DNA of 39,591 nucleotides, from NCBI GenBank assembly GCA_020845955.1, contig JADLEU010000240.1, positions 1 through 39,591 on the forward strand, written 5' to 3'. Each line of letters starts with the position of its first letter. Position 1 is the first letter of the stretch. A model generated the notes under the pieces. It searched no databases, was not told the origin of the DNA, and worked only from the letters and a program-made list of their open reading frames with translations. Both the position numbers and the translations under genes were made by a program. Shown one piece after another: positions 13,539 to 31,287 of the stretch. Source of the DNA: Anaerolineales bacterium (GTDB lineage: Bacteria > Chloroflexota > Anaerolineae > Anaerolineales > UBA6663).

Positions 13539-14106
13539 AGATATCTTGGAGCGAGACTTCCAGGCGCTCAGAGCGGTTCTGAGGCAGGAGGATCGGCTGA
13601 ACCCGGCCCATAGCGATCCGATCTACTATTACGTCTATCGACCGCGCCGGATGCTGCTGGTCAGGCGCCGGCTGGCTGCCTGGATGGGCGTGCTCCGCAA
13701 CGACGGCCTAAAACCCGTGCGCGTGTCACTGGCGGATATCAAGGACGAGCTGATCCAGGCCTCCGGGCGGTGGGACGAGTGGCTCACATACGAGGCCGAA
13801 GTCGAGCCAGGCGAGGTTAACCGCGACATCCGTGATGTGCTGACACAGAATAACGCTTTCGTCAGCCGCGTCGCTGAACGCATCGCACCCGGTGACGAGC
13901 ACACAGTGGTACTACTGACCGAAGCAGAGCTATTGCACCCATACTTCCGAACGCGCGCCATCGAAAGCGCCTTGGCGGGCAAGGTGCCGCATCCGACGGT
14001 GATCTTCTACCCTGGACTGCGGGTGGGGCAATATGGTCTGCACTTCCTGGGCTTCTACCCGGAGGACGGGAATTATCGCTCCACCTTGATCGGTGGGCTG
14101 GAGTAG
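13522..14106 (+). CDS. brxB: BREX protein BrxB (DUF1788)
   Basis: This 194-residue protein is of the DUF1788 family, recognised by YYYVYRPRRMLLVRRRLAAW near residue 35, LTEAELLHPYFRTRAIES in the middle and VIFYPGLRVGQYGLHFLGFY near the C-terminus. It is of standard length. BrxB is required for BREX but its biochemical role is not settled. It starts inside the end of brxA and is followed by brxC after 13 nt, so it is coupled to both. Confidence 0.92.
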   Translation: MPLSDEDILERDFQALRAVLRQEDRLNPAHSDPIYYYVYRPRRMLLVRRRLAAWMGVLRNDGLKPVRVSLADIKDELIQASGRWDEWLTYEAEVEPGEVNRDIRDVLTQNNAFVSRVAERIAPGDEHTVVLLTEAELLHPYFRTRAIESALAGKVPHPTVIFYPGLRVGQYGLHFLGFYPEDGNYRSTLIGGLE

Positions 14107-14119
14107 GGGATCGACGCAC

Positions 14120-17100
14120 ATGGCAGCTATTCGCACACTGTTCTCCACGCGCCGCCGCATTGACCGGCGAATTGAGAAAGTCATCGACTACGCGGCGCGT
14201 GAAGATGAACGCCTCCTGGCCGAGATCGAGGAGTACGAGGCCACCGACAACGTCGAGGCCTGCTTCCGCAAGTTTCTGGAGCATTATCGGCTGGGCGTGA
14301 CCGGCGGGCAGGTGGGCGACAACGCCGTGTGGGTGTCCGGATTCTACGGGTCGGGCAAGAGCTCGTTCACGAAATATCTGGGCCTGGCACTCGAGGGCAA
14401 GAAGGCTGGCACTCAGCCATTCGTTGCTTTGGTAGGCGAACGTCTGCAATCCACTGACGTGCAGGCCCTACTACGCACAGTGGCGGCGCAGACGCCCACA
14501 GCAGTCGTGTTCCTGGATCTGGGTGCTGAGCAACTGGCTGACAACGCTGCCGAGACGGTCTCCAATGTTCTGTACTGGAAGGTGCTACAGTTTGCCGGCT
14601 ACTCCAAGGAAAAGAAGCTTGCGCAACTGGAGTTGACCCTCGAGCGCGAAGGCAAATATGAGGCCTTCCGTCAGCTATACCAGGAACGCTGGGGCGAGCC
14701 GTGGGAGAACGTCCACAACGCGCCCGTGATGGGCACCGCGCGAGCCGCGCAGTTGGTGCCAGAGCTGCTTCCCAAGGAATTCCCCACGCCGGAGAGTTTC
14801 AGGCAACTCCGCTTTGAGCTGGCCGACAACTTGCGCGACCGGGCAAAGGAGATGATCGAGCTAGTTCGGCGGAAGCTGGGCAAGCAGAACATCCTGTTCA
14901 TGATCGACGAAGCCGGACAGTATGTGGCCCCTCGCCAGGAGCTTATCCTGAACTTGGATGGGCTGGTGCGCGATTTTAAGGAGTTGGGGCAGGGCAAGGT
15001 ATGGGTGGTGGCGACGGGCCAGCAGACCTTGGCCGAGATCGTCAGTAATGCCCAGTACAACTCGGCCGAGCTCAACCGTCTTCAAGCGCGCTTCCCGGTA
15101 ACCATTGAACTGGATGCGCGGGATATTAAGGAAATTACCTATCGGCGCCTGTTAACCAAAACGCCCGAGGCGCTGCAGAAGCTCAAGGACATGTTCCGCC
15201 AGAGCGGACAGGCGCTAGTGACTCATACTCGGTTGGAGGGCACCACCCTTTACCGGGCCGATCCCAATGCCGACACCTTTGCCCAGTTCTACCCTTTCCT
15301 GCCACAGCACTTTGACCTTCTGCTGGAGCTGATCCGCACCCTGGCCCGTTCAACCGGTGGCATCGGCTTGCGCTCTGCCATCAAGGTCATCCAGGACGTC
15401 TTGGTTGACGTCAACCGCCTGCTGCCACCAGACGCGACGCGCCTGGCCGACCGCGAGGTCGGGCAGCTTGCATGCGCCGACGACTTCTTCGATATCCTGC
15501 GCAATGACCTACTCAAGGTGTTGCCCCATGTCGTGGCGGCCGTGGACCGAGTCGCGAGCATCTTTGGCGGCAATCCCCTGGCGTTGCGCGTGGCGAAAGC
15601 AGTCGCGGCCTTACAGCCGATTGAGACCTTCCCGGCCTCGGCCGAGAACCTAGCGGCGCTGCTCTACCCAGCGCTGGATAGGCCCAGCCAATTGCCGGAG
15701 GTGCGTGAATTGCTACGAGCGATGCTGGCCGTGCCAGACATCGGCCTGGTGGAAGACCCCAAAGTTGGGGGATACGTTTTTCTTTCCGACAAGGCTCAGG
15801 AGCTGCAGCGCAAGCGCAGCGGCATCACATGGACAAGCGGCGACCTCCTGCGCATCCGGAATGAGATTCTGGGTAAGCGTCTGTTTGAACCCCAACCATC
15901 GGCCCGAGTGGAGAATAGCAAGGACGTTCGCGCCGCCGTGCGGGCCGATAAGGCGCTGGTGGCCGGCGATAACGAAGATCTGACCTTCCGGCTGGAGTGG
16001 GTGGACGCAGGCCGTTGGGACCAGCGCCGGCAGGAGCTGCTGACTGAGACGGCGGCGCAGCCCGAGTGGCAGGCGGCCATTGCCTGGTTGGCACGCCGCG
16101 ACGAGACTGTGGACGAGCTGCTGCCCGAGATCTACAAGTCGGAGCAGATCGCGGGCCAAGTGGACGAGCGTAGCGTGGACCGCGACCAGGCGCAGTTCCT
16201 GCGCGCCGAGCGCAAACTTGCCGAAACCAATCGCGACGAGGTGGAACGACGCTTGCGGCAGACGTTGCTGCAAGGCACGCTCATCTTTCGGGGCCGCCCC
16301 ACACCGGCCGGCGAAGCGGGCCTGACGGTGGACGCCGCCGCGCGTACGGTGTTGGCGCAAGCAGCCAAGGAGGTGTTCAAGTACTACTACCTGGCGCCGG
16401 TGCGCGTAGCGACTGACCTGGCCGCCAACCTGCTCAAGGCTGAGCGCCTGGACCGTGCCGGTGAATACGATCCGCTGAAGTTGGCCACGCGGCAGGGCAG
16501 TACCACACGAATCAACACCCAGCACCCAGCGCTGGCCGAGGTGTTGCGAGCCTTTCGGGCCAAGCTGGAAGAGACCGGCAGCGGCCGTTTGCAGGGCAAC
16601 TTCCTGCAGGATTTCTTTGCGGGTCCACCTTACGGCTGGTCTAAGGACACCGCGCGCTATCTATTTGCCGCCCTGCTGTGGGCGGCCGAGGTGGAATTTC
16701 ACACGCCTGCAGGAGCGCTGAAGGTGCCTGGCCCGGCCGCGGTCGAGGCCGCAAAAAGCACATTGGCCTTCAACAAGGTCGGCGTCTCAATGCGAGACGC
16801 CCCGCCCGACCTGGACGCCCTGGATCGTGCTGCCCGCCGGCTCGAGGAGTTGTTTGGCGACAACGTGATGCCGCTGGAGGACAGCGTCAGCCGGGCAGTG
16901 CGACGGCGGGTGCCCGAAGTACTCGAGGAAGCGGGCGCGCTGCCCGATCGCTTGCGCCTATTGGGGCTGGCGGGGGAGCCGCGGGCGCGCAACCTGAACG
17001 CCACGCTGACGCGCGCTCTCAGCGGTGATGCCACCGACGCCGGCAGCATTTTTGGCGCCCGCGACGCGACCGTCGCCGAGGACATCCGCTGGGCCCAGGC

Positions 17101-17746
17101 CGCAATGAAAGCGTTGAGCGAAGGCGCCGAGCGGGATGTGCAGGAGGCGGTGCGCCTTCGGAGTAGCGTGCAAGAGCTCGACTTGCTCTTCCCGGGTGAG
17201 GGCGCTCGCCTGCTGACCGAGGCTGACCGAGAAACACTGGCCGAGGCGCTGGCGAGCGAACGCTTCTTTGAGCGCCTGCCTGAAGTGCGCGGCCTGCTGC
17301 GGCGTGCTCAAGAGCGCGCCGAGGCACGCTACACCGAGCTTGGACAGGAGCAGGCCGAAGCGCTGCGGCGGGCACGGTTGAACCTGGAAGCCCACCCTGA
17401 CTGGCCTTTGATTAGCGATGAAGATCGCACTGCGCTGATGGGGCAACTTGAGGCGGCCGAATTGCCGCCGGTGCGCCAGGCCGGCGCAGCCGATTTGCGC
17501 ATGGCGCTGGTGCGCCAGGCACGGCTGGCACAGACGCAGCGCGAGTTCGATGAGGAAGTAAGACGTCGAGTGCCGCCCCCGCCGCCGAGCGACGGCGCGG
17601 CGCCCGAAGTGGCCAATCTGGCCTGGGCCGAAATGCAGCCACCAGGCCTGCTGACCACGGAGAGTGAACTGGATGAGTGGCTGAAGCGGCTGCGCGCGCG
17701 CCTGGCCAGCCTGCTGCGCGCCGGCAAGCAAGTTCGGTTGGAATAA
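14120..17746 (+). CDS. brxC: BREX ATPase BrxC
   Basis: This 1208-residue protein starts at the ATG at 14120 (MAAIRTLF), preceded by GGGGA; the same frame extends upstream through brxB but without family-like sequence. Walker A GFYGSGKS is at 74-81 and Walker B FMIDEAGQ near 260-267. A long helical C-terminal half rich in Arg/Glu heptads follows. BrxC/PglY is a large P-loop ATPase of BREX thought to form the central assembly with PglX and PglZ. The length is near the usual 1100-1250. It is followed by pglX after 17 nt. Confidence 0.95.
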   Translation: MAAIRTLFSTRRRIDRRIEKVIDYAAREDERLLAEIEEYEATDNVEACFRKFLEHYRLGVTGGQVGDNAVWVSGFYGSGKSSFTKYLGLALEGKKAGTQPFVALVGERLQSTDVQALLRTVAAQTPTAVVFLDLGAEQLADNAAETVSNVLYWKVLQFAGYSKEKKLAQLELTLEREGKYEAFRQLYQERWGEPWENVHNAPVMGTARAAQLVPELLPKEFPTPESFRQLRFELADNLRDRAKEMIELVRRKLGKQNILFMIDEAGQYVAPRQELILNLDGLVRDFKELGQGKVWVVATGQQTLAEIVSNAQYNSAELNRLQARFPVTIELDARDIKEITYRRLLTKTPEALQKLKDMFRQSGQALVTHTRLEGTTLYRADPNADTFAQFYPFLPQHFDLLLELIRTLARSTGGIGLRSAIKVIQDVLVDVNRLLPPDATRLADREVGQLACADDFFDILRNDLLKVLPHVVAAVDRVASIFGGNPLALRVAKAVAALQPIETFPASAENLAALLYPALDRPSQLPEVRELLRAMLAVPDIGLVEDPKVGGYVFLSDKAQELQRKRSGITWTSGDLLRIRNEILGKRLFEPQPSARVENSKDVRAAVRADKALVAGDNEDLTFRLEWVDAGRWDQRRQELLTETAAQPEWQAAIAWLARRDETVDELLPEIYKSEQIAGQVDERSVDRDQAQFLRAERKLAETNRDEVERRLRQTLLQGTLIFRGRPTPAGEAGLTVDAAARTVLAQAAKEVFKYYYLAPVRVATDLAANLLKAERLDRAGEYDPLKLATRQGSTTRINTQHPALAEVLRAFRAKLEETGSGRLQGNFLQDFFAGPPYGWSKDTARYLFAALLWAAEVEFHTPAGALKVPGPAAVEAAKSTLAFNKVGVSMRDAPPDLDALDRAARRLEELFGDNVMPLEDSVSRAVRRRVPEVLEEAGALPDRLRLLGLAGEPRARNLNATLTRALSGDATDAGSIFGARDATVAEDIRWAQAAMKALSEGAERDVQEAVRLRSSVQELDLLFPGEGARLLTEADRETLAEALASERFFERLPEVRGLLRRAQERAEARYTELGQEQAEALRRARLNLEAHPDWPLISDEDRTALMGQLEAAELPPVRQAGAADLRMALVRQARLAQTQREFDEEVRRRVPPPPPSDGAAPEVANLAWAEMQPPGLLTTESELDEWLKRLRARLASLLRAGKQVRLE

Positions 17747-17763: not shown

Positions 17764-20700
17764 ATGCCCTTCGATAAACCCACCCGCAATGCTCTGGCTC
17801 GCCTGGTTGCCGCTGCCCGAAACCGGCTGATCGAAGACCTGACAGCCCAACTCCAATCTGATTTCCGCTTGCAGCCGGACGGCACTGCCCTCCCGCTTGA
17901 CGGCCTGACCGACGCCCAGCGCGCCGCCGCTGAGGATTTGCGCGAACTGCTGGCCCACTATCGGGCCGCGCTCCCAGCCGGGGAGCGCCGGCCAGGCACG
18001 GCATCCTTTGACCGCCTGGTGCGCGAGATCGGCTTTACAGTGCTCAATCGCCTATCGGCACTGCGGCTGGGCGAGGAACGCGGCCTGGTGGTGCAGTGCG
18101 TAAGGCAGGGGCTGGCCTCCGAGGGTTTTCAGCTCTATGAGCGGCTGACCGGCGGAGCGCTGGGCGGCGGTTATAACAGCTACCGCTCCTTCCTGTACAA
18201 CCTGTTTGACGAACTGGCCGTCGAACTCGGCGCACTGTTCGACACTCGCACCCCCCTCTCGCATGTGTTCCCAACCGAACGGGCCTTGCTGGATGTGCTT
18301 GACCTGCTCAACAAGCCCGACCTGGCCTGGATTTGGCAGGAGGACGAGACGATCGGGTGGATTTACCAGTATTACAACGACGAGGCTGAGCGCAAGAAGA
18401 TGCGCGACGAGTCGCAGGCCCCACGCAACTCCCGCGAGATGGCCGTGCGCAACCAATTCTTCACCCCTAGATACGTCGTGGAATTCCTGGCGGACAACTC
18501 GCTGGGCCGGTTGTGGTACGAGATGCGCGCCGGTGATACGCGGCTGGCGGAGGAATGCCGCTATCTGGTGAGGCAGCCAGCAGCCGAGGGCGCCGCATTG
18601 CCCACCCGCGCGAAGAAAGACCCGCGCAACGTTACCATGCTCGACCCGGCCGGTGGCTCCGGCCACTTCGGGCTCTACTGCTTCGACCTTTTCGAGACAA
18701 TCTATGCAGAGGCCTGGGACGACCCAGACCTAGGACCAATGTTGCGCGAAGACCACCCGGATCGCGCAGCGTTTGACAAGGCCGTCCCACGCCTCATCTT
18801 GGCCCACAACATCCATATTATCGACATTGACCCGCGTGCCGTGCAGATCGCCGCTCTGGCTCTTTGGTTGCGAGCCCAGCGCAGCTACCAACGGCTGGGT
18901 CTCAAGGCCGCCGAACGCCCGCGAATCATGCATGTGAATGTCGTAACGGCTGAGCCGATGCCCGGCGACCAGGCGCTATTGAATGAATTCGTGACTGAAT
19001 TGCGGCCGAGGGTGCTTGGCGACTTGGTGCGCGTGATCTTCGAGAAGATGAAGCTGGCTGGCGAGGCCGGCTCAGTACTGAAGATCGAAGATGAACTGCG
19101 TGAGGCCATCGCAGCCGCGAAAAAGCAATGGCTGATTGGCGACAGGGCAGAGCAGTTGGCACTTCTTCCTGGCGAGAAGAACGTGCCCAACGCTGAGCAA
19201 ATGGCGCTGTTTGACGTCTCGGACGTTAGCGATGAGAGCTTTTTCGATGAGGCTGAGGCCAGGGTATTGGAAGCCCTGCGCGATTACGCCGGGCAGGCCC
19301 GGAACGGCCACGCGACCCGTCGCACACTCTTTGCCCACGATGCTGCACAAGGCTTTGCGTTCATAGAGCTGTGCCGCAAACGGTATGACGTGGTGTTGAT
19401 GAATCCTCCGTTTGGTGCGCCATGCAAGTCGACTATTGATTACTGCTCGGTAAACTTTCCTAGCGCAGCCCATGACCTGGCATATGCGTTTGTTGATCGG
19501 GTGCTCAGAATCGTTGCCAAGGCGGGTTATGTCGGGTGCATAACCACGCGAACAGGTTTTTTCCTTCCCACATTGGAGGAATGGCGGCGATCTGTGTTGG
19601 CTGGTGGGCGATCTCTCGTCGTTTTCGCTGACTTGGGCTATGGTGTGCTCGAAGCCTTGGTTGAGACAGCTGGGTACGTGCTTAGCCCGGGCAAACAATC
19701 CTCTTCTACTCATTTCTTTGATGTACTTACGTCAAGAGAAAAACAGGGAAGCCTGCTGGGCCAAGTTACTGAACGAGGCGTTGAGCACTACCTCGTAAAT
19801 GTCGACACGTTCGATTCATTACCAGGTATGCCATTTGGCTATTGGGCACCAGAAGGCCTTTTGACATCCTTCGCAAAGTGTCACAGATTTGAGCCAACAT
19901 GGGGCGAAGTGAAGCGAGGCGTGGCAACTGGTGATAATGAACGCCTCCTTCGTCTAGCTTGGGAAGTAGCCACAGATGATATCGGCGCAGAGGCTAACTG
20001 GATATGGTATGCAAAAGGTGGGGAGTACTCACCCTACCACATGGAAACACACCTCTTGCTGGATTGGCGAGATGGCGGACGTGTGCTCCGCAACTTGATT
20101 GGAGAAAACGGTCGGTTGAGATCACGGCCGCAAAACCTGGAGTACTTCTTTCGCCCGGGACTAGCCTACGCTTCGCGAACAACCAGTGGCTTTGCGCCGC
20201 GAGTACTCCCGGCGTATTGTGGTTTTGATCAGACAAGTAATCCAATTTTTCCGATAGATGCCCTACCGAAGGAGGCTGTGTTAGCCCTTTTCCTCACGCG
20301 GCCGGTATTGTGTTTCATTGAGCTGTCAGTTGGAGTTGGCGATACATCTCAGTCTGGCACTGCAGCACGCGACTATACAAACGGGCTTGTTGGCCGAATA
20401 CCAATACCTGAGATGACATTGGACGACTGGGCTGCCCTAGCGAAACTGGGTGCCAGGTTGACCGAACTCTCACGAATACCTTCTCGCACCCGCGAGACTG
20501 CTGCGGAGTTCATTGCGCCCAAGCTGCTTCTCAGCAAAGCAGACAGCCTCTTGGATAGAATGTCCGCACATGTCACGTCTGAGTTACAACGGATCGTGGA
20601 AATACTGGACTTGTCGTGGCGGGCCGAACAAATAAGCACCGGTCTATATGACCTAGATTCCGACTCACAAGAATTTCTTGACAGCTTCGTCGGTCCACAT

Positions 20701-22029
20701 CCAATGGCTTATACACTTTTCGAGCAATCAGAAGGGGGCGCTGGACCAGCCAGAATTGAGACGAAGAAGTGCTACTGGGCCGATCGAGAATTCGAACTCA
20801 GATGTCATGAGGCGAAGAGAGCACCGCAGCATATCGCCCCGGCCATAGATGTAATTGAAATGGCAAATCGGAGTCTGTCCGAGGAAGTCAACTGCGTCAC
20901 GTCCTATTTGACCGGTTGCTGCTTCGGTAGATGGGACATTCGCATAGGCTTGGATCCTGCTGTCGCTCCTAGACTTGCCGGACCTCTTGACGGCCTCCCA
21001 CAATCCTCCCCAGGCACGCTTGTAAGCCCAGATGGTCTTCCCGCGACACCTGGAAATATCGTAAGCGAAGCTTGGCTGCTCGCGCGGCCGAATTCGATTA
21101 CCCTGCCTCTCGATGGCAGCGTTGCGCAGCCCGCAATCCCTGACTCGGAGTATCCGTTACGAATTGCCTGGGATGGAGTCCTTGCCGATGATCCTGGACT
21201 GGACCCAGAACGCGAAGACCTGCACCAGGCCGATGTCGTGCGCCGGGTGCGTGAGGCGCTGGCAGTGCTGTGGGGGAAGCATGCCAGTGCAATTGAGCAG
21301 GAAGCCTGCGAGTTACTTGGCGTACGCGACCTGCGCGAATACTTTCGTAAGCCTGGTTACTTCTTCGCTAATCACCTGAAGCAGTATTCGAAGAGCCGAC
21401 GCCAGGCGCCGATCTATTGGCCGTTGAGTACGGCTTCGGGCGACTACACCATCTGGGTCTATTACCATCGGCTGACCGGCGACACCCTCTACACAGTCGT
21501 CAACGGTTACGTGAAACCCAAGCTTCAGGCCATCCAGGCACGTATTGACCGCCTTAGTGATGAACTGGGAGAGACCAAGGGGCGCGAAGCAACAACGTTA
21601 CGCGACGAGATCGAAGGCCTACGACGTTTCCTGGGCGAGCTCAACGACTTCCAGGCCGAGCTGCTGCGCGTGGCGGGCTTGCCCTATAAGCCGAACTTGA
21701 ACGACGGCGTGATCCTCAACGCGGCGCCCTTGCACAAGTTGTTCCGGCTGCGCAAATGGGCGACAGACTGCAAAGCGGCGTGGGACAAGCTGGCGGTGGG
21801 CGAGTACGACTGGGCGCACATCGCCTACACGATCTGGCCGGAACGGGTAAAGAAGGCGTGCGAGACGGATCCGTCAATCGCCATCGCGCATGGCCTGGAG
21901 CACCTGTACAAGGGGGAGGCGAAGTCGGCGGGCAAGAAGCGAGGGCGGAAGAAGAAGGCGGCCGGCGATGAGGGCGACGCGCTGGAGTTGGGTCTGGACG
22001 AGGGGTTGTCGAGTGAAGGGGCAGAATAA
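17764..22029 (+). CDS. pglX: BREX adenine-specific DNA methyltransferase PglX
   Basis: The protein has 1421 residues from the ATG at 17764. Upstream codons in the same frame overlap brxC by 70 nt and look non-coding. It has an N6-adenine methyltransferase core with SAM-binding DPAGGSGHF (294-302) and catalytic NPPF (547-550). Then come a long target-recognition region and a C-terminal helical domain ending in a Lys/Glu-rich tail. PglX methylates one strand of an asymmetric site to mark self DNA in BREX. The length is somewhat above the common 1200 or so. The stretch from about 19400 to 21080, right after NPPF, is distinctly AT-richer than its flanks, suggesting that the specificity region was exchanged. 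It is followed by an inverted repeat and the nested cassette. Confidence 0.95.
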   Translation: MPFDKPTRNALARLVAAARNRLIEDLTAQLQSDFRLQPDGTALPLDGLTDAQRAAAEDLRELLAHYRAALPAGERRPGTASFDRLVREIGFTVLNRLSALRLGEERGLVVQCVRQGLASEGFQLYERLTGGALGGGYNSYRSFLYNLFDELAVELGALFDTRTPLSHVFPTERALLDVLDLLNKPDLAWIWQEDETIGWIYQYYNDEAERKKMRDESQAPRNSREMAVRNQFFTPRYVVEFLADNSLGRLWYEMRAGDTRLAEECRYLVRQPAAEGAALPTRAKKDPRNVTMLDPAGGSGHFGLYCFDLFETIYAEAWDDPDLGPMLREDHPDRAAFDKAVPRLILAHNIHIIDIDPRAVQIAALALWLRAQRSYQRLGLKAAERPRIMHVNVVTAEPMPGDQALLNEFVTELRPRVLGDLVRVIFEKMKLAGEAGSVLKIEDELREAIAAAKKQWLIGDRAEQLALLPGEKNVPNAEQMALFDVSDVSDESFFDEAEARVLEALRDYAGQARNGHATRRTLFAHDAAQGFAFIELCRKRYDVVLMNPPFGAPCKSTIDYCSVNFPSAAHDLAYAFVDRVLRIVAKAGYVGCITTRTGFFLPTLEEWRRSVLAGGRSLVVFADLGYGVLEALVETAGYVLSPGKQSSSTHFFDVLTSREKQGSLLGQVTERGVEHYLVNVDTFDSLPGMPFGYWAPEGLLTSFAKCHRFEPTWGEVKRGVATGDNERLLRLAWEVATDDIGAEANWIWYAKGGEYSPYHMETHLLLDWRDGGRVLRNLIGENGRLRSRPQNLEYFFRPGLAYASRTTSGFAPRVLPAYCGFDQTSNPIFPIDALPKEAVLALFLTRPVLCFIELSVGVGDTSQSGTAARDYTNGLVGRIPIPEMTLDDWAALAKLGARLTELSRIPSRTRETAAEFIAPKLLLSKADSLLDRMSAHVTSELQRIVEILDLSWRAEQISTGLYDLDSDSQEFLDSFVGPHPMAYTLFEQSEGGAGPARIETKKCYWADREFELRCHEAKRAPQHIAPAIDVIEMANRSLSEEVNCVTSYLTGCCFGRWDIRIGLDPAVAPRLAGPLDGLPQSSPGTLVSPDGLPATPGNIVSEAWLLARPNSITLPLDGSVAQPAIPDSEYPLRIAWDGVLADDPGLDPEREDLHQADVVRRVREALAVLWGKHASAIEQEACELLGVRDLREYFRKPGYFFANHLKQYSKSRRQAPIYWPLSTASGDYTIWVYYHRLTGDTLYTVVNGYVKPKLQAIQARIDRLSDELGETKGREATTLRDEIEGLRRFLGELNDFQAELLRVAGLPYKPNLNDGVILNAAPLHKLFRLRKWATDCKAAWDKLAVGEYDWAHIAYTIWPERVKKACETDPSIAIAHGLEHLYKGEAKSAGKKRGRKKKAAGDEGDALELGLDEGLSSEGAE

Positions 22030-22039
22030 CAGGCGGGGG

Positions 22040-22063
22040 ATGGTCAACAAGGGAGTTGACCAT
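22040..22063. repeat. Perfect 9-base inverted repeat at the pglX/cassette junction
   Basis: ATGGTCAAC (22040-22048) and GTTGACCAT (22055-22063) pair completely around AAGGGA, ten bases after the pglX stop. In the RNA it would form a small hairpin whose loop holds an AGGGA ribosome-site-like sequence, just before the helicase start. As DNA it could be an operator. Confidence 0.6.
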
Positions 22064-22079
22064 CGTGGGGGAGATGCGG

Positions 22080-25000
22080 ATGGTTGAGTGGCCGTTTGGC
22101 ATTGGCGACACGCGCCAGTACACGGTGGTGAGCGGTGGCGCGCGCGTGCCCGAGCGCGGCGAGCGGGTCTACTTCGTCCCGCTTGACAGCGCTCGTATTG
22201 GCGCCACCGACGTAACGCGCCGGCCTCTCGGCGAGGTGCTGGACGAGAGCGCCCGTTTGCGCCTGCGCCACACGCTCGAGACAAAGCAGGCCTACGTCGC
22301 CGAGGCCATTGCGACGGGGGCTGACGGGCGCTGGCAAGCCCGGGTGTCGTGGCCGGTTGAAGTCATCCCGCTGACCGGTCCGATCCAGATTGTGCTTTCA
22401 GTCCCTTCACGCCGCCAGGTAGAAAGCCGATGGCAGGAGCAATTGCATCTGCCGCGCGATGTGCCGGCACCCGAGTTGGACGAGGCCAGCTTGCTCACCT
22501 GGCTGCAACAGGTGTTTGTCTACCAGGCCAATTTCCTGGTATTCAACCGCGTTGAGGATAAGCCGGACGAGCTCGTGCTGCTCGGCCCGGCCGGCCAGCT
22601 TCGGTGCCACATTCGCAAGCGCAGCTTCCTGTGGGCCGCTAACGCCGGCCGGCTGCCCAAGGAGCACGAGCCTGCCTTTGAGCGCGCGGGCGTGATCGAA
22701 GCCCGCGCCGAGTGGCACTTCAGCCAGGCCCGGCTGCCGGAGGTGGCGGAGGGCGCGCTCAATGTGCTTCAGGCCATTGCCGCGAAATCGGAGTACTTCG
22801 CGATCTGGGACGAGTACGGCAAGCTCGAGCAGGAAATGCTGGCCAACCGCATGGCCGCTCTCGGGCCGCTGCATTTCCGACGCCTCAAGTATTTCGACGA
22901 CGTTGTGCGCTTCTATCTGGAGCCGGGCGCCAATACCGCTGCCTGGCGCGACCAGGCGCTTGGGCTCTCAGCCGAGCTGGTCACCCGGCCGAAGCGGCGC
23001 GCGCGTACCTCGCAGGCGGAGGAGGCCGTCCACGGCCTGACCCTGGGCGCCATCCGGCGCGTCAAGCCCGACTTCGTCGACGTTGACCGCACCGACGATG
23101 AGCCCGGGCTTCCCGACCGCGGCGAATTGCGCGTCTCGCCTATTGGCGACACGGTGCGCCTCGCCCGGCAGCGAGCCGCGCGTGATCAGCTTCAGTTGGG
23201 TCTGGTGCCTCTGCGCCATCTCCAGACGCTGCTAGCCGAAGGCAAGACCGACGAGATTACCAACTATCCCGTGCCGGCATTTACCAGCCAGCCGCAGCGC
23301 CAGGCCGATGGCACGACGCCCAACGAGCGCCAGGTCCAGGCCATTGCCATGGCACTCAACACGCCGGACTTAGCCGTCATCCAGGGGCCGCCCGGCACCG
23401 GCAAGACCGCAGTCATCCGCACCATTCTGCGCCGGCTCAAGGAGCAGGGCCGGCGCCATCTTCTCGTCTCGTCGCACCAGCATACCGCCGTCGATAACGT
23501 CCTCAAAGGCACGGCGGCTTCGGGCGTGGTAGCCTACCGCTTTGGAGGCAACGAAGATAGCGAGAGCTATCGCAACGAAGAGCTGGACTCCTGGGTGGTA
23601 CAGGTCACGGGGGCCGTCAACGCTGAGCTCGAGCGTTTGCCTGTGGATGACGGCCGCTTCGAGCAGCGGCTCAGGCTAAAGTCACTGGTGGAGCAGGCCG
23701 CCCTAACCCATCTCTCGCTGCCGGCCTGTCAGGAGCTGCTCGCTAGGGCCTCGGAGGACTACGCCGAAGTGCTTCCCATAGTGCTCGGGCAGCGAGCCGA
23801 AACACTACGCGCAGCCCTTGAAAGCGAGATCGCGGCTTCCCAGCCAGCCTCGAAACCTGGCCAGGGCAACCAGCTGAAGGAGGCGCGGCGGGCACTGGCA
23901 GAGTTGCCGGCCGATGCGGGCCAGCTCAGCAACACCACGCCGCTGGCCGAGTTAGGGGCCAAACTGCAGGCGCTACGAACGGAGGGCATAGGCGATGTCG
24001 CCGCCTTCCAGGAGTACAGGCGCAGTCAGAACAAGGTAAGTGCGCTACTTCCGCGCGTGCAGTTGACGAGCCAACCAGCGCAAGCGCGGGCGCAGCTTCA
24101 GTCCGCCCTCGATGCCGTACGCCAGGCCGCACAGCAATTCATAGAGGCCTGCCTGGAAGTGCCTGTCGAAGCGCCTGCGGCGGTTGATCACGCCTATGGT
24201 GAAGACTACTGGCGCTCCAAGTTCCACGAATGGTGCCGCCAGGTGGCCCAGGCCGTCGGCCGGGAGGCTGAGGCGAGCAGCAGCCAGGTGGTGCTGATCC
24301 TGAACCGCTGGCGCGAGACGATCAACACCCGGCCGGCACAGGTACAGCAGCTTCTCAGCAAGCACGCCGACGTGTGGGGCGTCACGTGCCAGCAGTCCGC
24401 CGCCAAGCGTTTCGGCCTGTATGATAGCGAATTTGACTGTGTGGTGGTTGACGAAGCGGCTCGCACGAGCCCACTCGATTTGCTCATCCCGCTGGTCCGG
24501 GCCCGCCGCATCATCCTGGTGGGCGATCACCGGCAGTTGCCCCACGCGCTCGACTATCAGCTCGAGAAGGAGTTCGAGACGGCTATCCGCCAGCCGGAGC
24601 ACCGCGAGTTGCTCAAAGCCAGCCTGTTCGCCCGGCTTTACGACCAGTTGCCGACCAGCAAACGGGTGCGGCTAAACGTCCAGTACCGCATGCATCCCGT
24701 CATTGGCCGGATGGTGAGCCAGGCGTTTTACGCCGACGACCCGCTGGAGGACGCCCCTGCCACCGCCGACCTGGTCAATGACACGGGGTTGTTCGACGGG
24801 CACTCGCTTGTGTGGCTCGACACCAGCTCGGCTCCCGGCCAACGTGAATCCGGCCAGTACCATAACTCCTTCGAAGCAGAGTGGGTACTGGAGTGCGTCA
24901 GGCGCCTGCTTGGCGGCCCGCGCGCGGACAGCGTCGGGATCATCACTTACTACGCCCAGCAGCGCGACCAAATCGACCGTCTCTTGCGCGACCATGTGCC

Positions 25001-25271
25001 AGGCAGTCAGCGCGTGCAGGTGGGCAGCGTCGACGCTTTCCAAGGTGAGCAGAAGGAAGTGGTCCTCCTCTCGACCGTGCGCAGCAACCCCGACCGACGC
25101 ATTGGCTTCCTCAGCTCACCCAACCGCATCAACGTATCTGTATCCCGCGCCCGTCGGCTCCTGGTGATCATCGGCGACGCCGCAACCGTCTCTGCCAGCC
25201 CGCATCTCAAGTCCGTCCTGGATTATTGCCAACAGGTCAACAGTGTCCTACATGCGCTTCCGCCCGCTTAA
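22080..25271 (+). CDS. UPF1-like SF1 helicase, CoCoNuT-type cassette
   Basis: The protein has 1063 residues from the ATG at 22080; ATG 22074 and GTG 22065 are alternatives, and a TTG at 22056 lies in the hairpin. The N-terminal 420 residues have no motif I know. The helicase core has GPPGTGKT (motif I, nt about 23386), VVDEAARTSPLD (motif II), GDHRQLPHAL (III), QYRMHP (IV), VDAFQGEQKEV (V) and VSVSRARRLLVI (VI). This is the UPF1/DNA2 pattern of SF1B helicases that act on RNA or DNA. Between motifs Ia and II lies a coiled-coil-like insertion of about 280 residues. It is not the BREX helicase BrxHI or BrxHII. UPF1-like helicases accompany coiled-coil McrBC (CoCoNuT) systems, which fits the next three genes. 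Confidence 0.85.
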   Translation: MVEWPFGIGDTRQYTVVSGGARVPERGERVYFVPLDSARIGATDVTRRPLGEVLDESARLRLRHTLETKQAYVAEAIATGADGRWQARVSWPVEVIPLTGPIQIVLSVPSRRQVESRWQEQLHLPRDVPAPELDEASLLTWLQQVFVYQANFLVFNRVEDKPDELVLLGPAGQLRCHIRKRSFLWAANAGRLPKEHEPAFERAGVIEARAEWHFSQARLPEVAEGALNVLQAIAAKSEYFAIWDEYGKLEQEMLANRMAALGPLHFRRLKYFDDVVRFYLEPGANTAAWRDQALGLSAELVTRPKRRARTSQAEEAVHGLTLGAIRRVKPDFVDVDRTDDEPGLPDRGELRVSPIGDTVRLARQRAARDQLQLGLVPLRHLQTLLAEGKTDEITNYPVPAFTSQPQRQADGTTPNERQVQAIAMALNTPDLAVIQGPPGTGKTAVIRTILRRLKEQGRRHLLVSSHQHTAVDNVLKGTAASGVVAYRFGGNEDSESYRNEELDSWVVQVTGAVNAELERLPVDDGRFEQRLRLKSLVEQAALTHLSLPACQELLARASEDYAEVLPIVLGQRAETLRAALESEIAASQPASKPGQGNQLKEARRALAELPADAGQLSNTTPLAELGAKLQALRTEGIGDVAAFQEYRRSQNKVSALLPRVQLTSQPAQARAQLQSALDAVRQAAQQFIEACLEVPVEAPAAVDHAYGEDYWRSKFHEWCRQVAQAVGREAEASSSQVVLILNRWRETINTRPAQVQQLLSKHADVWGVTCQQSAAKRFGLYDSEFDCVVVDEAARTSPLDLLIPLVRARRIILVGDHRQLPHALDYQLEKEFETAIRQPEHRELLKASLFARLYDQLPTSKRVRLNVQYRMHPVIGRMVSQAFYADDPLEDAPATADLVNDTGLFDGHSLVWLDTSSAPGQRESGQYHNSFEAEWVLECVRRLLGGPRADSVGIITYYAQQRDQIDRLLRDHVPGSQRVQVGSVDAFQGEQKEVVLLSTVRSNPDRRIGFLSSPNRINVSVSRARRLLVIIGDAATVSASPHLKSVLDYCQQVNSVLHALPPA

Positions 25272-26808
25272 GGGCGTCGATTCCGACAGCGTCGAGTGTC
25301 TCCTGCTGGCGTGGCCAGTGCTGGCTGTGCCGGTACGCTGTTGGGCAGTGTCGGCAACCGCGCTCGATGCCATGGAACAGACTGTGCTGGAATTGGCAGG
25401 CGCTGGCGTTGGTCAGGTGTCTGATCTGCAGGCGCTGCTGGGCATCCCCGACACGATGGCCACCATGGTCGAGCGCACCGTGCGCCAGTTGCGCACTCGG
25501 GGCTTGGTAGCCGAAACGGGCAAGCTCACCCAGGAGGGTGAAAAGGTCGTGCAGGCTGCCGAGCCGCCCAAAGAGTATCAGGCAGGCTGGCTGCTCTTTG
25601 ACCAGGTGCGCGGCAAGATGTTTCCCTTCGTGCACCTTGGCCGGCCCAGGTTTTTCGCCAGCCGGGATATCGACGCCTATGACCCTCTGAGGCTCACCGC
25701 GCGGGTGGACCTGCCCTCCACAGAGATGCTAAGACGTGAGAGCAGCCTGGCGGTCGCCGCCCACAACCGGCGCTCAGCCCTGCTGGAACTGGCAGACGAC
25801 GAAGGTCAGGCACTGGAGCGTGAGCGCGAGCTTGACCTTCCGGTGGAGGCCAGCAGTCATCCTAACCACCTCGAGGACGTCGAAGTGCTGGCCCGTGACC
25901 TCGTCGAAGAGCATCACCTGCTGATCGAAGTCATCGGCCAATTGCCGCCAGGCAGCAACGAAGTCGCGTTGCGTTCCTTCTCGCCTTTCTCTCCTTGGGA
26001 GCAGCAGCAATATGCCCAGGTGTTGGCGGCGTTGAACGACCCGGCCGTGAGAGCGCGCCTAGACGACTTCAATGCCCTGGTCCGGCAGCGAGCCAGGGGG
26101 GACTTGGCAGTGTTTGGGCTGAGCGAAGCTAATTGGCGCGAAACCCTCATTCGCCAGGTTGTTGAGCAACTTGGGCCACGGCCAATGTTACCGGAGGCTG
26201 TACTGTCGGACTTATTGACGTGTGAGCAGTACTACCAGTGGGCTGAGCACAGCGGAGATGAAGCGGTGTCGCTGGGGCGCGGGAACAGCGTCAACCCGTG
26301 GGGTATTCTCCTTGAAACGACGCTCGAAAGGATTGCCAAGGCAATTGGTACCCGGCCGATCCCCAGCGGCTGGCGTGGATTCGCTCTGAACAAATCAACT
26401 GCCCTTGTTTGGTATCGCGAGCTCGTGAAAGCGGCAAACCGGCCACCGCCCTGGCAGCATCTTCCACCCCTCATCGAAAACGCGCTACCCAAATGTGATA
26501 AGAAGGGTTTGCCGGCGACTCTCGGCCAACTCAGGTCAATCAGCAGCCGAGATGAGATCGCGAAGATCCTGCTCGCAGTCCTGTCCGCTCCCCCGGGTGA
26601 TTTGCCGCCTGAGGTTGCAAGGATCGCGGCGGCGATTGATCGGGATTCAGGCTGGCTTGAGCGCCTCGATTACGTGGCCGAATGGCGCAATGACGCTGCC
26701 CATGGGGGCGAAGACGTAAATCAGTTAGCCCCTGATGAGTATGAGGCAGTACTTCGTCGAGTCAGGGCTAATGTCTACGGGTTTCTGCGGGATGTCTACG
26801 CCGAGTAG
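25252..26808 (+). CDS. Winged-helix and HEPN-like protein, probable RNase effector of the cassette
   Basis: The protein has 518 residues from the ATG at 25252; a GTG nine bases earlier is possible. The start overlaps the helicase end by 20 nt, so translation is coupled. After a short N-terminal domain, residues about 40-100 look like a winged helix (LQALLGIPDTMATMVERTV, LRTRGLVAETGKLTQ). The middle is unassigned. Near the C-terminus WRNDAAHGG contains R479-(x4)-H484, the signature of HEPN ribonucleases, set in a helical region. HEPN proteins accompany CoCoNuT systems and cleave RNA to stop growth. The HEPN call rests on one short motif plus context, so it is moderate; HEPN-fold proteins without RNase activity share this RN..H pattern. 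Confidence 0.6.
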   Translation: MRFRPLKGVDSDSVECLLLAWPVLAVPVRCWAVSATALDAMEQTVLELAGAGVGQVSDLQALLGIPDTMATMVERTVRQLRTRGLVAETGKLTQEGEKVVQAAEPPKEYQAGWLLFDQVRGKMFPFVHLGRPRFFASRDIDAYDPLRLTARVDLPSTEMLRRESSLAVAAHNRRSALLELADDEGQALERERELDLPVEASSHPNHLEDVEVLARDLVEEHHLLIEVIGQLPPGSNEVALRSFSPFSPWEQQQYAQVLAALNDPAVRARLDDFNALVRQRARGDLAVFGLSEANWRETLIRQVVEQLGPRPMLPEAVLSDLLTCEQYYQWAEHSGDEAVSLGRGNSVNPWGILLETTLERIAKAIGTRPIPSGWRGFALNKSTALVWYRELVKAANRPPPWQHLPPLIENALPKCDKKGLPATLGQLRSISSRDEIAKILLAVLSAPPGDLPPEVARIAAAIDRDSGWLERLDYVAEWRNDAAHGGEDVNQLAPDEYEAVLRRVRANVYGFLRDVYAE

Positions 26809-26831
26809 CCGGATTGGAAGGGGACCACGCC

Positions 26832-29018
26832 GTGGCAAAACCATCGAAGAAGCGTAAGCAGCAGACGCCCCCACAATCCCAAAGGCCATCCGCGCCATTC
26901 GGGCCGGCCAAAGCAGTGGCCCCGCCGGATCAATCCAACGGGGGCCCGAGCGGTCGAGCAACGGAGCAGCCGCGAGCGCCCGGCCCGGTGGAGCCTCCGC
27001 CGGCCCCCCCTGTAGTGGTCACCCAGACGACGGGCAAGGCGTCCGCGGATATCCACACCGAACGCGAACTTGAGCTCGAACTTGAACTGGAACAGGCAAA
27101 GAAGGACATCCTTGCTTTACAGAATGGGCTGGCTGAGGCGCGTGCGAGCGTGCCAATTGCGGACGCTCAGAGCGCTGAGCTAGACCGGCTTCGGCAAGAG
27201 AACGCTGGCCTGCGGTCGGAGCTACTGGTGTATGAGAAGCTTAAGTCCGAGCATCAGGCATTGCAGTCCCAATATGCAGAAATGAAGGAGCAGTGGCGCC
27301 AGTCACTGGAGAAGGTCACCGAACTCGCCAAGACAGCGGAAGAACAAAGCCGCCAGGAGCAACAACTACTCGAGCTGCAGGCCCGGCTGGATGAGATCAC
27401 CGCCGCCTGGAATCCCGCTCGGGTCAAGGAGATTGAGATCGAGCGCGATGCCTTCGGTCGCCAACGCGACTACCTTGAAGAACGACTAACCGACACTATC
27501 CAACAGGTAGAAGCACTGCAACGCCAATTGGCCGGCGTGGATCAGGAAGAATTGGACCGGTTGCGCCAACGGGCGGCGGCCGCGGAGCGAGACCGGGCCG
27601 CGCTCCAGGACAAGCTCAATACGTATTCGGCTTACACTGCGGAATTGCTGGCAAACAAGGACCGTCTGCGCCGGGCCGCGGATCTGGAGCAGCAGGTGCT
27701 AAGGCTTCAAGAGGAAACGGCTGCCAGCAACGCCACCATTGCGGATTTGCGCTCGCAGGTGGTACAGCTTTCCGCGTACCGATCACTGGCTGACCGCGTG
27801 AACCAGGAGCTAACCGAGTACAAGCAGCAGCTCGATGTTGTCAACGAGTCGGAGCGCCAGCGTTTGGAGCGTGGCGCGCGGGCATTTGACGCACTGCGTG
27901 ATTTGGTGGAAAAGCCTGAGTACACCAAGACCTATGCCGGCCAAATCAAGCCATGGCCGGGAGATCCGCAGGTTGTCGGGCTAATCCAGGACTATGCCAG
28001 GAAGTATGACTTCGAGTACTCGCTTAGCCGCATCAAGGCATTCCTGGCAGCCACGCGCAGTTCCCGATTCATTGTGCTCAGGGGCTTCTCCGGGAGCGGC
28101 AAGACGAGCCTGCCCGTGTTAATAGGCCGCGCCATAGGGGCACCCTACGAGGTCATTCCCGTCCAGCCAAGCTGGAGGTCGAAAGTCGATCTCCTAGGTT
28201 TCTTCAATCACTTTGATCAGCGCTTCCTGCCCACCCTCTTCACAAAGGCGCTAATCAAGGCCCAGCTGCCGGCCTTCCAGGATCGCCTCTTCTTCATTGT
28301 GCTGGACGAAATGAATCTGTCACGGGTTGAATACTACTTCAACGACTTCAATGTGAAGTTGCAGGATGAAAACGAGCCCGCGGTCGAGCTATTCGACAAT
28401 GCGGCTGTTGGAAGCCTGCCACCGGGCGGCATCGCGCGCTACATTCACAATGGCAACCAAGTTGCCATCTCACGTAATGTGGTATTCGTCGGCACAATCA
28501 ACGATGATGAAACCACATTTCCCCTCAGCGACAAAATCTACGACCGGGCCCAGGTCATCGACTTTATCGAGACAGCCGATGGGCTCCGGCACGGAAAACT
28601 ACCGCCGGATAGCGTCGTCATGCCTGCATTGTCCTTCTCAGGGTACTTGGCGGCGGGTCAATCTGCTGTATTGCCGGAAGTAGCCACCCAGGAGCTCGAG
28701 GCGTTCCTGGTCGACCTAAATGGCGTGTTGAGGAAGCGCTTCTTCCTGAACATGAGCTACCGCCCCGGCCGGCAGATCGTCGATTTCGTGGCTGCCTACG
28801 CGGCAGGTTCCACGTCGATGCAGGTAATGTCGGAAGCTCTAGACCTGCAGATAATCTCGAAAGTGCTGCCCAAGATCCGCTATAGCCACAGGACGGACTT
28901 CGAGGACGATCTTAAAGAGTTTGGCGATGAGCTGCAGCGGCACTGGCCATATGCCAAGCATAACTTAGGCCCCGACCAGACGCGTGCGGCGCTTGAGCTT
29001 ATGAAATCACGGCTGTAG
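26832..29018 (+). CDS. Coiled-coil McrB-like AAA+ GTPase/ATPase
   Basis: The protein has 728 residues from the GTG at 26832, which has a strong GGAAGGGGA site 8 bases before it; a TTG 18 nt upstream is the alternative. It opens with a Lys/Pro-rich disordered tail (1-70). A long coiled coil follows (about 70-375) with many Glu-Leu-Gln heptads, and then an McrB-type AAA+ domain. That domain has Walker A GFSGSGKTSL (about 417-426), Walker B FFIVLDEMNLSRVEYYF and a TINDDETT segment in the position of the McrB MNxxD signature. McrB uses GTP to drive DNA translocation. The coiled-coil N-terminus is the hallmark of the CoCoNuT subclass. It is followed by its McrC-like partner after one base. Confidence 0.85.
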   Translation: MAKPSKKRKQQTPPQSQRPSAPFGPAKAVAPPDQSNGGPSGRATEQPRAPGPVEPPPAPPVVVTQTTGKASADIHTERELELELELEQAKKDILALQNGLAEARASVPIADAQSAELDRLRQENAGLRSELLVYEKLKSEHQALQSQYAEMKEQWRQSLEKVTELAKTAEEQSRQEQQLLELQARLDEITAAWNPARVKEIEIERDAFGRQRDYLEERLTDTIQQVEALQRQLAGVDQEELDRLRQRAAAAERDRAALQDKLNTYSAYTAELLANKDRLRRAADLEQQVLRLQEETAASNATIADLRSQVVQLSAYRSLADRVNQELTEYKQQLDVVNESERQRLERGARAFDALRDLVEKPEYTKTYAGQIKPWPGDPQVVGLIQDYARKYDFEYSLSRIKAFLAATRSSRFIVLRGFSGSGKTSLPVLIGRAIGAPYEVIPVQPSWRSKVDLLGFFNHFDQRFLPTLFTKALIKAQLPAFQDRLFFIVLDEMNLSRVEYYFNDFNVKLQDENEPAVELFDNAAVGSLPPGGIARYIHNGNQVAISRNVVFVGTINDDETTFPLSDKIYDRAQVIDFIETADGLRHGKLPPDSVVMPALSFSGYLAAGQSAVLPEVATQELEAFLVDLNGVLRKRFFLNMSYRPGRQIVDFVAAYAAGSTSMQVMSEALDLQIISKVLPKIRYSHRTDFEDDLKEFGDELQRHWPYAKHNLGPDQTRAALELMKSRL

Positions 29019-29019
29019 C

Positions 29020-31287
29020 ATGTTAAGGTTGCTTGCGACGCAGCGCCTCTGCCGCGAGCCCAAGGCAGTGCCCATTTCCGAGCTAGCGGGTCAACGTATC
29101 CGCGCCGCCGATTGGCGCTTCACCCTCGCATGGGACGAAGGCTCATACCCCCGGCGGCTGCTGGTCGATGATAGCCCACTCCGCGAAGTGGATCGACCAG
29201 GGACACCCGGTGCTGACGCCTGGCCCTTTCATCTACCGCCAACCGTACGGGAGATGGTTCGGATTGAGGCGGAGGCATTTTCTGGCGAGCGCTGCGTCGG
29301 CATCATTGACACGATTGCGGGTTTCCAGATGCCGCCGGAGCACCTGCAATTGATGCTCGGCTGGTTCCAGTTCTACCGAGATATCGCCGTGTCGTTCGGT
29401 GGTGAGATCACATCGCTGGACTTGATCGATGACATCTTCTCGCTGTTCGATGATACATTGGCGCCGGACGTGATCGAAGACGATATTCCACCAAAGGTTC
29501 GTACAGAGCTCTCTGGCCTCTTTGACCAGGTGCTCAAGGCCCCCCTGCGTCGTCTCATCGACGAGCAGTGCCTGGTAGATCCGGGGGAGATACAGCGTAT
29601 CTCGCCGGCCACGGTTGATCACTTCATCCGGCATCCCGAGACATGGCACCGGCGCGCGCGCCTTCGCCCTCGCCCCGCAAGACTTCTCGACGACCGTGTG
29701 GACGAGGATTATGACGTCTATGAGAACCGTTTTGTGCTGCACTTCCTAGAGAGTCTGCGGGTTCGTCTTCAGGGCCTCATGTCTCGCGACCGACTGGCTG
29801 CGTATGAGCGAGAGCTGTATCTCGACGAGGCTATTCGCCGCGCCAATCTGAGCGTCTTTTCCTACCGGGTTGAGGATTTTGACAGACTTCGAGACCAAAG
29901 CCACGAACTTCGTCGCAACTGGGTGGATCTTGAGCACTTCCACAATACGGTCCTTCAGGTCCAATCGGCGCCTACCTTTGACAAGGTGCGGCCGCTCTCG
30001 GGATCGCCCCGCGCCAACACCGCACTGCTGATGCATCCTGTGTACGGGAGGCTGTATCAGATCTATGAGGAAATCGAGCAAGCCTCGTATAACCATGACC
30101 GCCTGCAACGGCTCGCAGAGGTGAAGTGCGCGGACTTCCACGGTGCCTACTTCGGTTACTGCGTTTTGATGCTCCTGCGGGCCTTCAAGCAAGCCCATTT
30201 CGATGTCGATAGCCAGGCTCCTTTCCCAATCTGGCGGGGCGACGCGGGGGTACCGCTTCGCAGTGGCAGCCCGGGCCAGGCGGCGGCAATCGAGCTTCGG
30301 CACCGTGATCGGCCAAACGTGCGGGTCAAGGTGTCTCTGCCACCCTCGGAGGGCGATTCGGTCGATGGCGGAATCCAGCTGGAGTTCAGCCACCAGGACT
30401 CACGTTCGATGGTGTGGCTGTTTCCAGACCCCTCGTGGTGGGGAGGCCGTGATCTGAGCCTTGAGGAGAAGGCGTCGGAGCTTCGGGGATTGTATGAACG
30501 CTTGCTAGAACTTAACTCCAACCCGCACGGGCCCGATGGCAGCAAACTAGCACGCCGGAATGTGCGCAGGCGAGACAGGGAGGCGGAGGCCAGTGCGGCG
30601 TCTATCCGGCACACCGTTCTACTTCTTCATCCGACAGCAACCGGTGATTTCGATGAGCGCTTACCGTATGCCGATTTGCGGCTGTTGCTGAACCAGGGTG
30701 ACAATTTTGCCAGCGACGAGGACTATTACCGTTACGGCGATTATCGCGTTGGTGCCCTTCCCATCTATATAGGACAGAGTATTCACGCCACGGTAGCGGG
30801 CGTGTCAACTCCAGATGCAGAACGAAGCAACCTTCGTCGGTTCCAGCGGCTAATCCGCATCCAATTGTTCCACATCGGCCTAGAGGACCTGTGCTGGAAC
30901 TGCTTCCAGACTGCGACAGTGACTGCTCAGGCAGATCGCTATAAGTACTACGCGTGTCGGAATTCCAATTGCGGTCTTCGCTGGGGCGAGATTACCTGCG
31001 GGCACTGTCACAAACGTGTTGTCAAGATGAAGCCTGCTTCGAACGCGGGTACCATGCGTGAATTCACCAGCTACCATGCTGAGAATGCCGTGTCAGCCAT
31101 TGGCTTCGCTGAAGCGCTTGAAGGCGGGCTGGCAGTATCCAGCGTGTGCGAGTCTCCTGATCACGCGAGCAACTTCTGGGGAATCTGTCCCTATTGTGGC
31201 CATTGCGAAAAGGAGGTGGCGGCCCAACACTGCCTGCGCTGCCGGAGCCGGCCGCCAGAAAGCGTAGCTCGTCATCGTAGAACCTAG
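29020..31287 (+). CDS. McrC-like DUF2357 protein with C-terminal zinc ribbons
   Basis: This 755-residue protein is of DUF2357/McrC type. The N-terminal half has FSGERCVGIIDTIAGFQMPP and the family signature VDEDYDVYENRFVLHFLES (about 227-245), followed by helices. In McrC-type proteins a PD-(D/E)XK nuclease with a DAK-like core follows. I cannot find a clear D-(x)n-E-x-K here. Instead the C-terminus has two cysteine clusters: about 622-675 (CWNC, CRNSNC, CGHC) and about 705-750 (C..ESPDH, CPYCGHC, CLRCRS). Both look like zinc ribbons that could bind nucleic acid. The start follows the McrB-like stop by one base, and pglZ follows after 9 nt. It is the probable partner of the McrB-like protein. 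Confidence 0.75.
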   Translation: MLRLLATQRLCREPKAVPISELAGQRIRAADWRFTLAWDEGSYPRRLLVDDSPLREVDRPGTPGADAWPFHLPPTVREMVRIEAEAFSGERCVGIIDTIAGFQMPPEHLQLMLGWFQFYRDIAVSFGGEITSLDLIDDIFSLFDDTLAPDVIEDDIPPKVRTELSGLFDQVLKAPLRRLIDEQCLVDPGEIQRISPATVDHFIRHPETWHRRARLRPRPARLLDDRVDEDYDVYENRFVLHFLESLRVRLQGLMSRDRLAAYERELYLDEAIRRANLSVFSYRVEDFDRLRDQSHELRRNWVDLEHFHNTVLQVQSAPTFDKVRPLSGSPRANTALLMHPVYGRLYQIYEEIEQASYNHDRLQRLAEVKCADFHGAYFGYCVLMLLRAFKQAHFDVDSQAPFPIWRGDAGVPLRSGSPGQAAAIELRHRDRPNVRVKVSLPPSEGDSVDGGIQLEFSHQDSRSMVWLFPDPSWWGGRDLSLEEKASELRGLYERLLELNSNPHGPDGSKLARRNVRRRDREAEASAASIRHTVLLLHPTATGDFDERLPYADLRLLLNQGDNFASDEDYYRYGDYRVGALPIYIGQSIHATVAGVSTPDAERSNLRRFQRLIRIQLFHIGLEDLCWNCFQTATVTAQADRYKYYACRNSNCGLRWGEITCGHCHKRVVKMKPASNAGTMREFTSYHAENAVSAIGFAEALEGGLAVSSVCESPDHASNFWGICPYCGHCEKEVAAQHCLRCRSRPPESVARHRRT

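Follow-up and report, generated by a model that had tools for sequence, protein, structure and literature searches.

What does a block of low-GC sequence in the middle of the gene for a phage-defence enzyme, a BREX methyltransferase, record? The question arises in a stretch of 39,591 nucleotides (the window) from an Anaerolineales bacterium, in which brxA, brxB, brxC, pglX, pglZ, and brxL are found together as a BREX type 1 cluster. Pfam and PADLOC matches identify brxA (from 12729), brxB (from 13522), brxC (14093-17746), and pglZ (from 31297), and brxL (33821-35851) was assigned from 82% identity to an open reading frame of locus L047, from 82 loci, and from relatives at L013 and L014 that are annotated brxL. 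The pglX gene (17764..22029, + strand) encodes a BREX-1 adenine methyltransferase of 1421 amino acids (PADLOC PglX, 1409 bits; Pfam Eco57I), with an NPPF/Y-motif methyltransferase, a target-recognition domain (TRD), and a C-terminal region in a single protein. The open reading frame as listed starts at a GTG at 17677; the ATG at 17764, picked by aligning relatives, was taken as the start and as codon 1, placing the catalytic NPPF at codons 547-550 (19402-19413). Domain limits were taken from sequence alignment to solved PglX.

Four genes lie between pglX and pglZ (22056-31287), encoding a helicase (MkoA-like), a weakly MkoB-like protein, a PDC-M26A-like protein, and a DUF2357 protein. The loci of the relatives contain no match to any of the four, and pglZ of L047 lies immediately after pglX. 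Given both observations, this segment looks like an inserted defence module.

The sequence-only reading had placed the start of the low-GC DNA right after the catalytic motif, and this position is correct. Its hand counts were exact on recount at 19861-19920 and 20281-20340 (31 GC of 60 in each) and at 18541-18600 (42), and off by one at 21601-21660, with 38 rather than the 39 claimed. Sliding windows give a GC content of 0.50-0.56 across about 19300-21100 and 0.57-0.71 around it, and by segment pglX has a GC content of 0.620 (17764-19401), 0.527 (19402-21080), and 0.611 (21081-22026). A two-changepoint fit to third codon positions puts the low-GC3 block at 19318..21216 on the + strand, with support ranges of 19297-19432 at the 5' side and 21193-21406 at the 3' side, and with a GC3 of 0.50 inside and 0.76 outside. 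The log-likelihood gain is 50. Shuffling single codons 200 times never gave more than 11, shuffling 10-codon blocks as often never more than 15, and no block in eight other long genes of the window exceeds 8.3. The shift in codon choice that had been claimed is also found: against genome codon use, the block scores -0.24 nats/codon and each flank +0.19, such that codon use is atypical for the genome inside the block only and both ends of pglX are typical. Computed from 20 contig pieces (167 kb), the genome background has a GC content of 0.676 and a mean gene GC3 of 0.785, and 3.4% of 200-codon windows in the sampled genes have a GC3 of 0.53 or less. Besides the TRD, the block takes in the final ~90 methyltransferase-domain codons.

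Homologues were collected by alignment searches of genome and viral contigs, plasmids, and the phylum, yielding a family set of 60 full-length fused PglX proteins from many phyla, the window's included. The GC3 of codons 641-1045 is lower than that of the flanks in 59 of the 60 (mean difference -0.19) and in all 36 members other than the window with a flank GC3 above 0.65. The dip is also present in L047, the closest relative. By depth the window ranks 23rd, with 22 of the other 59 deeper, and it sits 0.2 SD off the family trend (residual -0.02, SD 0.08). A step present in nearly all relatives is therefore a family trait and no proof of a recent event in this genome. A recent replacement in this genome alone, drawing on AT-rich donor DNA, would fit the contrast between the block and the mean gene GC3 and the confinement of atypical codons to the block; with the dip so widespread, shared with L047, and on trend in the window, this explanation is unlikely. 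More generally, with a dip found in almost every relative, low GC within pglX does not by itself point to recent transfer.

The dip does not stem mainly from amino-acid content, since GC at fourfold-degenerate sites is lower in the cassette, as the exchanged central segment is called below, in 60 of 60 members (mean -0.25), while second codon positions have a slightly higher GC there. On the family average, codons 541-545 still resemble the backbone in composition (z -0.1 to -2.1); the shift starts at codon 547 (z -7.2), is seen at F550 (z -5.5), and continues downstream.

Aligning homologues, as the sequence-only reading had proposed, reveals conserved ends and a divergent centre across the 60 family members. 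The N-terminal backbone (17764..19401, + strand), comprising a helical N-terminal region and the methyltransferase up to motif IV, is 45-70% identical in relatives and has a GC content of 0.62 and a GC3 of 0.74. At the other end, the C-terminal backbone (21037..22026, + strand) is 67% identical to L047 over codons 1190-1385. When the window is compared with L047, the ends are 70% and 67% identical and the cassette 33-36%, with breaks at codons 552 and 1091; the exchanged specificity cassette so delimited (19417..21036, + strand) has an identity to L047 of 0.36 inside and 0.68 outside.

The centre also has a history of its own. Over all pairs, the identity of the N-terminal part (codons 1-500) correlates with that of the C-terminal part (1190-1385) at 0.85, with that of the cassette at 0.05-0.06, and with that of codons 551-640 at -0.02. 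Those same codons, which correspond to the methyltransferase portion after motif IV (19417..19683, + strand), show a correlation of 0.52 with the first half of the TRD and thus travel with it. Trees point the same way: the cassette alignment rejects the N-terminal tree by 2986 log units, and the N-terminal alignment rejects the cassette tree by 8465 log units and the C-terminal tree by just 737. The N- and C-terminal trees have 18 of 55 splits in common and the N-terminal and cassette trees 5. The N- and C-terminal trees also differ from each other, which counts against the exchange reading.

Individual pairs make the exchange most apparent. L098 and L135 are 95% identical in the N-terminal part and 88% in the C-terminal part, with 34% at codons 551-640 and 25% and 16% in the two TRD halves. 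L016 and L050 show the reverse, with backbones 48% and 43% identical at the N and C termini and 71%, 62%, and 62% identity at codons 551-640 and in the first and second TRD halves. The cassettes of L048 and L091 are likewise more alike than their backbones, and the family therefore contains the same TRD on different backbones in both of these pairs. If there were no exchange, and the centre simply evolved fast under phage pressure with composition following the amino acids, the TRD would be expected to be the least conserved part, as it is (mean identity 17-25%), and the window itself has a single backbone relative above 60%. This account is already contradicted by the two pairs with shared cassettes, because fast divergence cannot leave a centre more alike than the ends. 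It also fits poorly with sharp breaks behind NPPFG in genes 95% alike elsewhere and with a shift strongest at fourfold sites while second positions become slightly richer in GC, and we consider it very improbable.

The claim that a specificity domain was replaced by recombination is thus upheld for the conserved ends and the divergent, separately inherited centre, and it is not supported where the composition step was taken as the mark of replacement in this genome. As counterevidence, the sequence-only reading had named a step shared by all close homologues with conserved sequence across it; the step is indeed shared by almost all homologues, while conservation of sequence across it is absent. 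For this lineage, the event is inferred from the family, since no close donor of the cassette was found and the nearest backbone relative is only 70% identical. A search of plasmids, viral contigs, and 396 genomes with the window's own cassette returned distant matches only and no partner sharing it, and no close DNA relatives were found.

Where the exchanged segment begins and ends was examined in 215 pairs with N-terminal identity of at least 60% and less than 45% identity in the first TRD half; family sequences are related to each other, and these pair counts are not independent. The 5' break falls at codons 552-553 in 118 pairs, at 554-556 in 19, and at 631-650 in 16. It falls before codon 500 in another 51, where there is another variable stretch, and this is a point against the exchange reading. 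Nucleotide alignments match through the codons ATG AAT CCn CCn TTT GGn, and the match is then lost at once. Together with the composition shift from codon 547, this makes the catalytic motif IV segment NPPFG (19402..19416, + strand) the 5' junction. Two zones appear at the 3' side. The break is at codons 1181-1220 in 161 pairs, marked by the APIYWPLST segment (21406..21432, + strand), and at codons 1041-1060 in 25, marked by the GRWD segment (20926..20937, + strand).

Work on Salmonella PglX suggests a reason for the position of the 5' junction. Designed changes of specificity there were mainly at residues 684-838 and in a methyltransferase-domain loop at 591-600 (PMC11341690). In a phmmer alignment to structure 8c45, this loop corresponds to about codons 625-632 of the window's pglX (approximately 19636..19659, + strand), between NPPF and the TRD. 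The TRD core lies at approximately 19843..20376 (+ strand), aligned to Salmonella PglX 662-849 (E 5e-21), with its end part extrapolated. The cassette, TRD included, aligns to a PglX of known structure, and a cut behind NPPF would keep the loop and the TRD together.

Seven E. coli pglX alleles provide a view of the same process at closer range. Upstream of the block their nucleotide identity is 91-97%; downstream it is 89-94%, or 100% for L227/L228. The blocks themselves are 44-56% identical among alleles. The block starts 5 to 7 residues past NPPY in 13 of 21 pairs and 149 to 153 past it in 7, and it ends at residues 970-1028, L227/L228 excepted. Its GC3 is 0.28-0.35, and that of the ends is 0.42-0.53. 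Both the junction and the dip therefore occur in another PglX clade. L227 and L228 are identical after residue 653 and unrelated at 515-653, and so the part behind motif IV and the TRD can be exchanged separately as well.

Taken together, the low-GC block is very probably a PglX specificity module that is exchanged as a unit between backbones through junctions in conserved segments. The reading is drawn from sequence comparison, which shows that composition changes in a block, that the ends are conserved, that the cassette has a history of its own, that breakpoints cluster, and that different backbones share cassettes. The module would consist of the end of the methyltransferase domain with its target-contacting loop, the TRD, and a helical spacer, and it would be swapped whole between genes of differing backbones, both in the window's clade and in E. 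coli BREX-1 PglX. The putative recombination joint is the NPPFG segment at the 5' side and GRWD or APIYWPLST at the 3' side, with joining presumably by homologous recombination over these short conserved segments. Exchange would be expected to alter the methylated site. The window's pglX appears to be a normal example of a modular design and not a one-off event. In nature, BREX enzymes seem to have been cut and rejoined just behind the catalytic motif, with the target-contacting loop kept with its own recognition domain, and the junctions suggest boundaries for specificity swaps in laboratory BREX systems.

Why the module should be AT-rich is a separate matter. It may reflect an AT-leaning exchange pool with incomplete amelioration. 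Cassette GC4 tracks backbone GC4 only loosely, with a slope of 0.45 and an r of 0.50, and the two most AT-rich cases show almost no dip; both are expected if cassettes come from a common pool. Exchange could be real and low GC3 be kept by selection, for example for slower inter-domain translation or low expression, instead of being a residue of the donor. The dip persists at a backbone GC4 of 0.35-0.55 (mean -0.13), shared cassettes partly follow their host (L016/L050), and HsdS genes are low in GC3 as well. With the tracking and the two AT-rich cases set against these points, selection is a possible but not a probable reason. Among the HsdS genes of the phylum (L192-L221), GC3 is below that of neighbouring open reading frames in 23 of 28 loci (p 1e-4), and an AT-rich composition of specificity genes may be common to restriction-modification systems in general.

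At NPPF itself (19402-19413 and the corresponding codons of relatives), the Asn and Phe codons AAT and TTT are much more common than elsewhere in those genes (z -7.2 and -5.5). This bias is present in the split relatives described below, mixed in distant PglX, and absent in 11 unrelated methyltransferases, a sample too small to prove a role at the DNA level. A tentative extension of the exchange model, which we hold to be doubtful, is that BREX specificity has a gene pool of its own, with AT-leaning cassettes that cross phyla as a fused part or a free gene and with the motif IV DNA ATGAATCCnCCnTTTGG kept at synonymous sites as the recombination joint.

Under programmed switching, the block would be replaced inside the cell from silent cassettes or by inversion, and pglX is known to be phase-variable in other BREX systems (PMC11341690). 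The assembly of 431 contigs holds one copy of the block, of which a second copy could have been lost, and no strong repeats flank it; switching is the least credible of the explanations considered, and we give it almost no weight.

The module can also stand as a gene of its own. In about 22 loci pglX is two genes, a methyltransferase gene that ends a few residues past codon 640 and an S-like gene with the TRD, spacer, and C-terminal part, a layout like that of HsdM/HsdS. These split BREX loci include L014, L111, L127, L087, L106, L119, L120, L123, L129, L130, L131, and L136. In a complete plasmid of Thioflavicoccus mobilis, the two halves are separated by 2.9 kb and two other genes. A 2025 review treats the TRD as integral to the BREX methyltransferase (PMC12707154), and no description of split pglX forms was found in the literature searched. 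At L124:4329-8210, one methyltransferase gene is followed by two tandem S-like genes with 57% protein identity whose last ~840 nt are 83% identical, a possible two-specificity BREX. Four contigs from viral collections (L138, L142, L143, and L146) carry two PglX-like genes in tandem.

By sequence, the window's PglX agrees with PglX/BrxX of BREX type 1 (Salmonella 8c45 and E. coli 9ewz; PMC11341690 and PMC11842806) in its methyltransferase motifs, its TRD, its C-terminal region, and the order of the genes. The Salmonella and E. coli proteins belong to another clade and are about 25% identical to it in plasmid comparisons. E. coli HS and Salmonella have been noted to diverge within pglX (PMC9009780), and the covered portions of the type 1 PglX literature describe neither family-wide exchange with an NPPF/NPPY junction nor a composition step. 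The pattern of exchange matches known TRD exchange and domain movement in Type I, III, and IIG restriction-modification systems, where the specificity domain is likewise swapped between alleles and species (PMC3077401 and PMC3983042). In contrast to those systems, there is here a single TRD within a BREX methyltransferase, the junction behind motif IV carries the end of the methyltransferase along, and no flanking repeats were seen. Unlike Type I HsdM/HsdS, the window's PglX is fused in one protein with no Methylase_S match reported in Pfam; like HsdM/HsdS, it holds its specificity in an exchangeable part with a GC3 below that of its neighbours, and its split relatives likewise have separate M and S-like genes.
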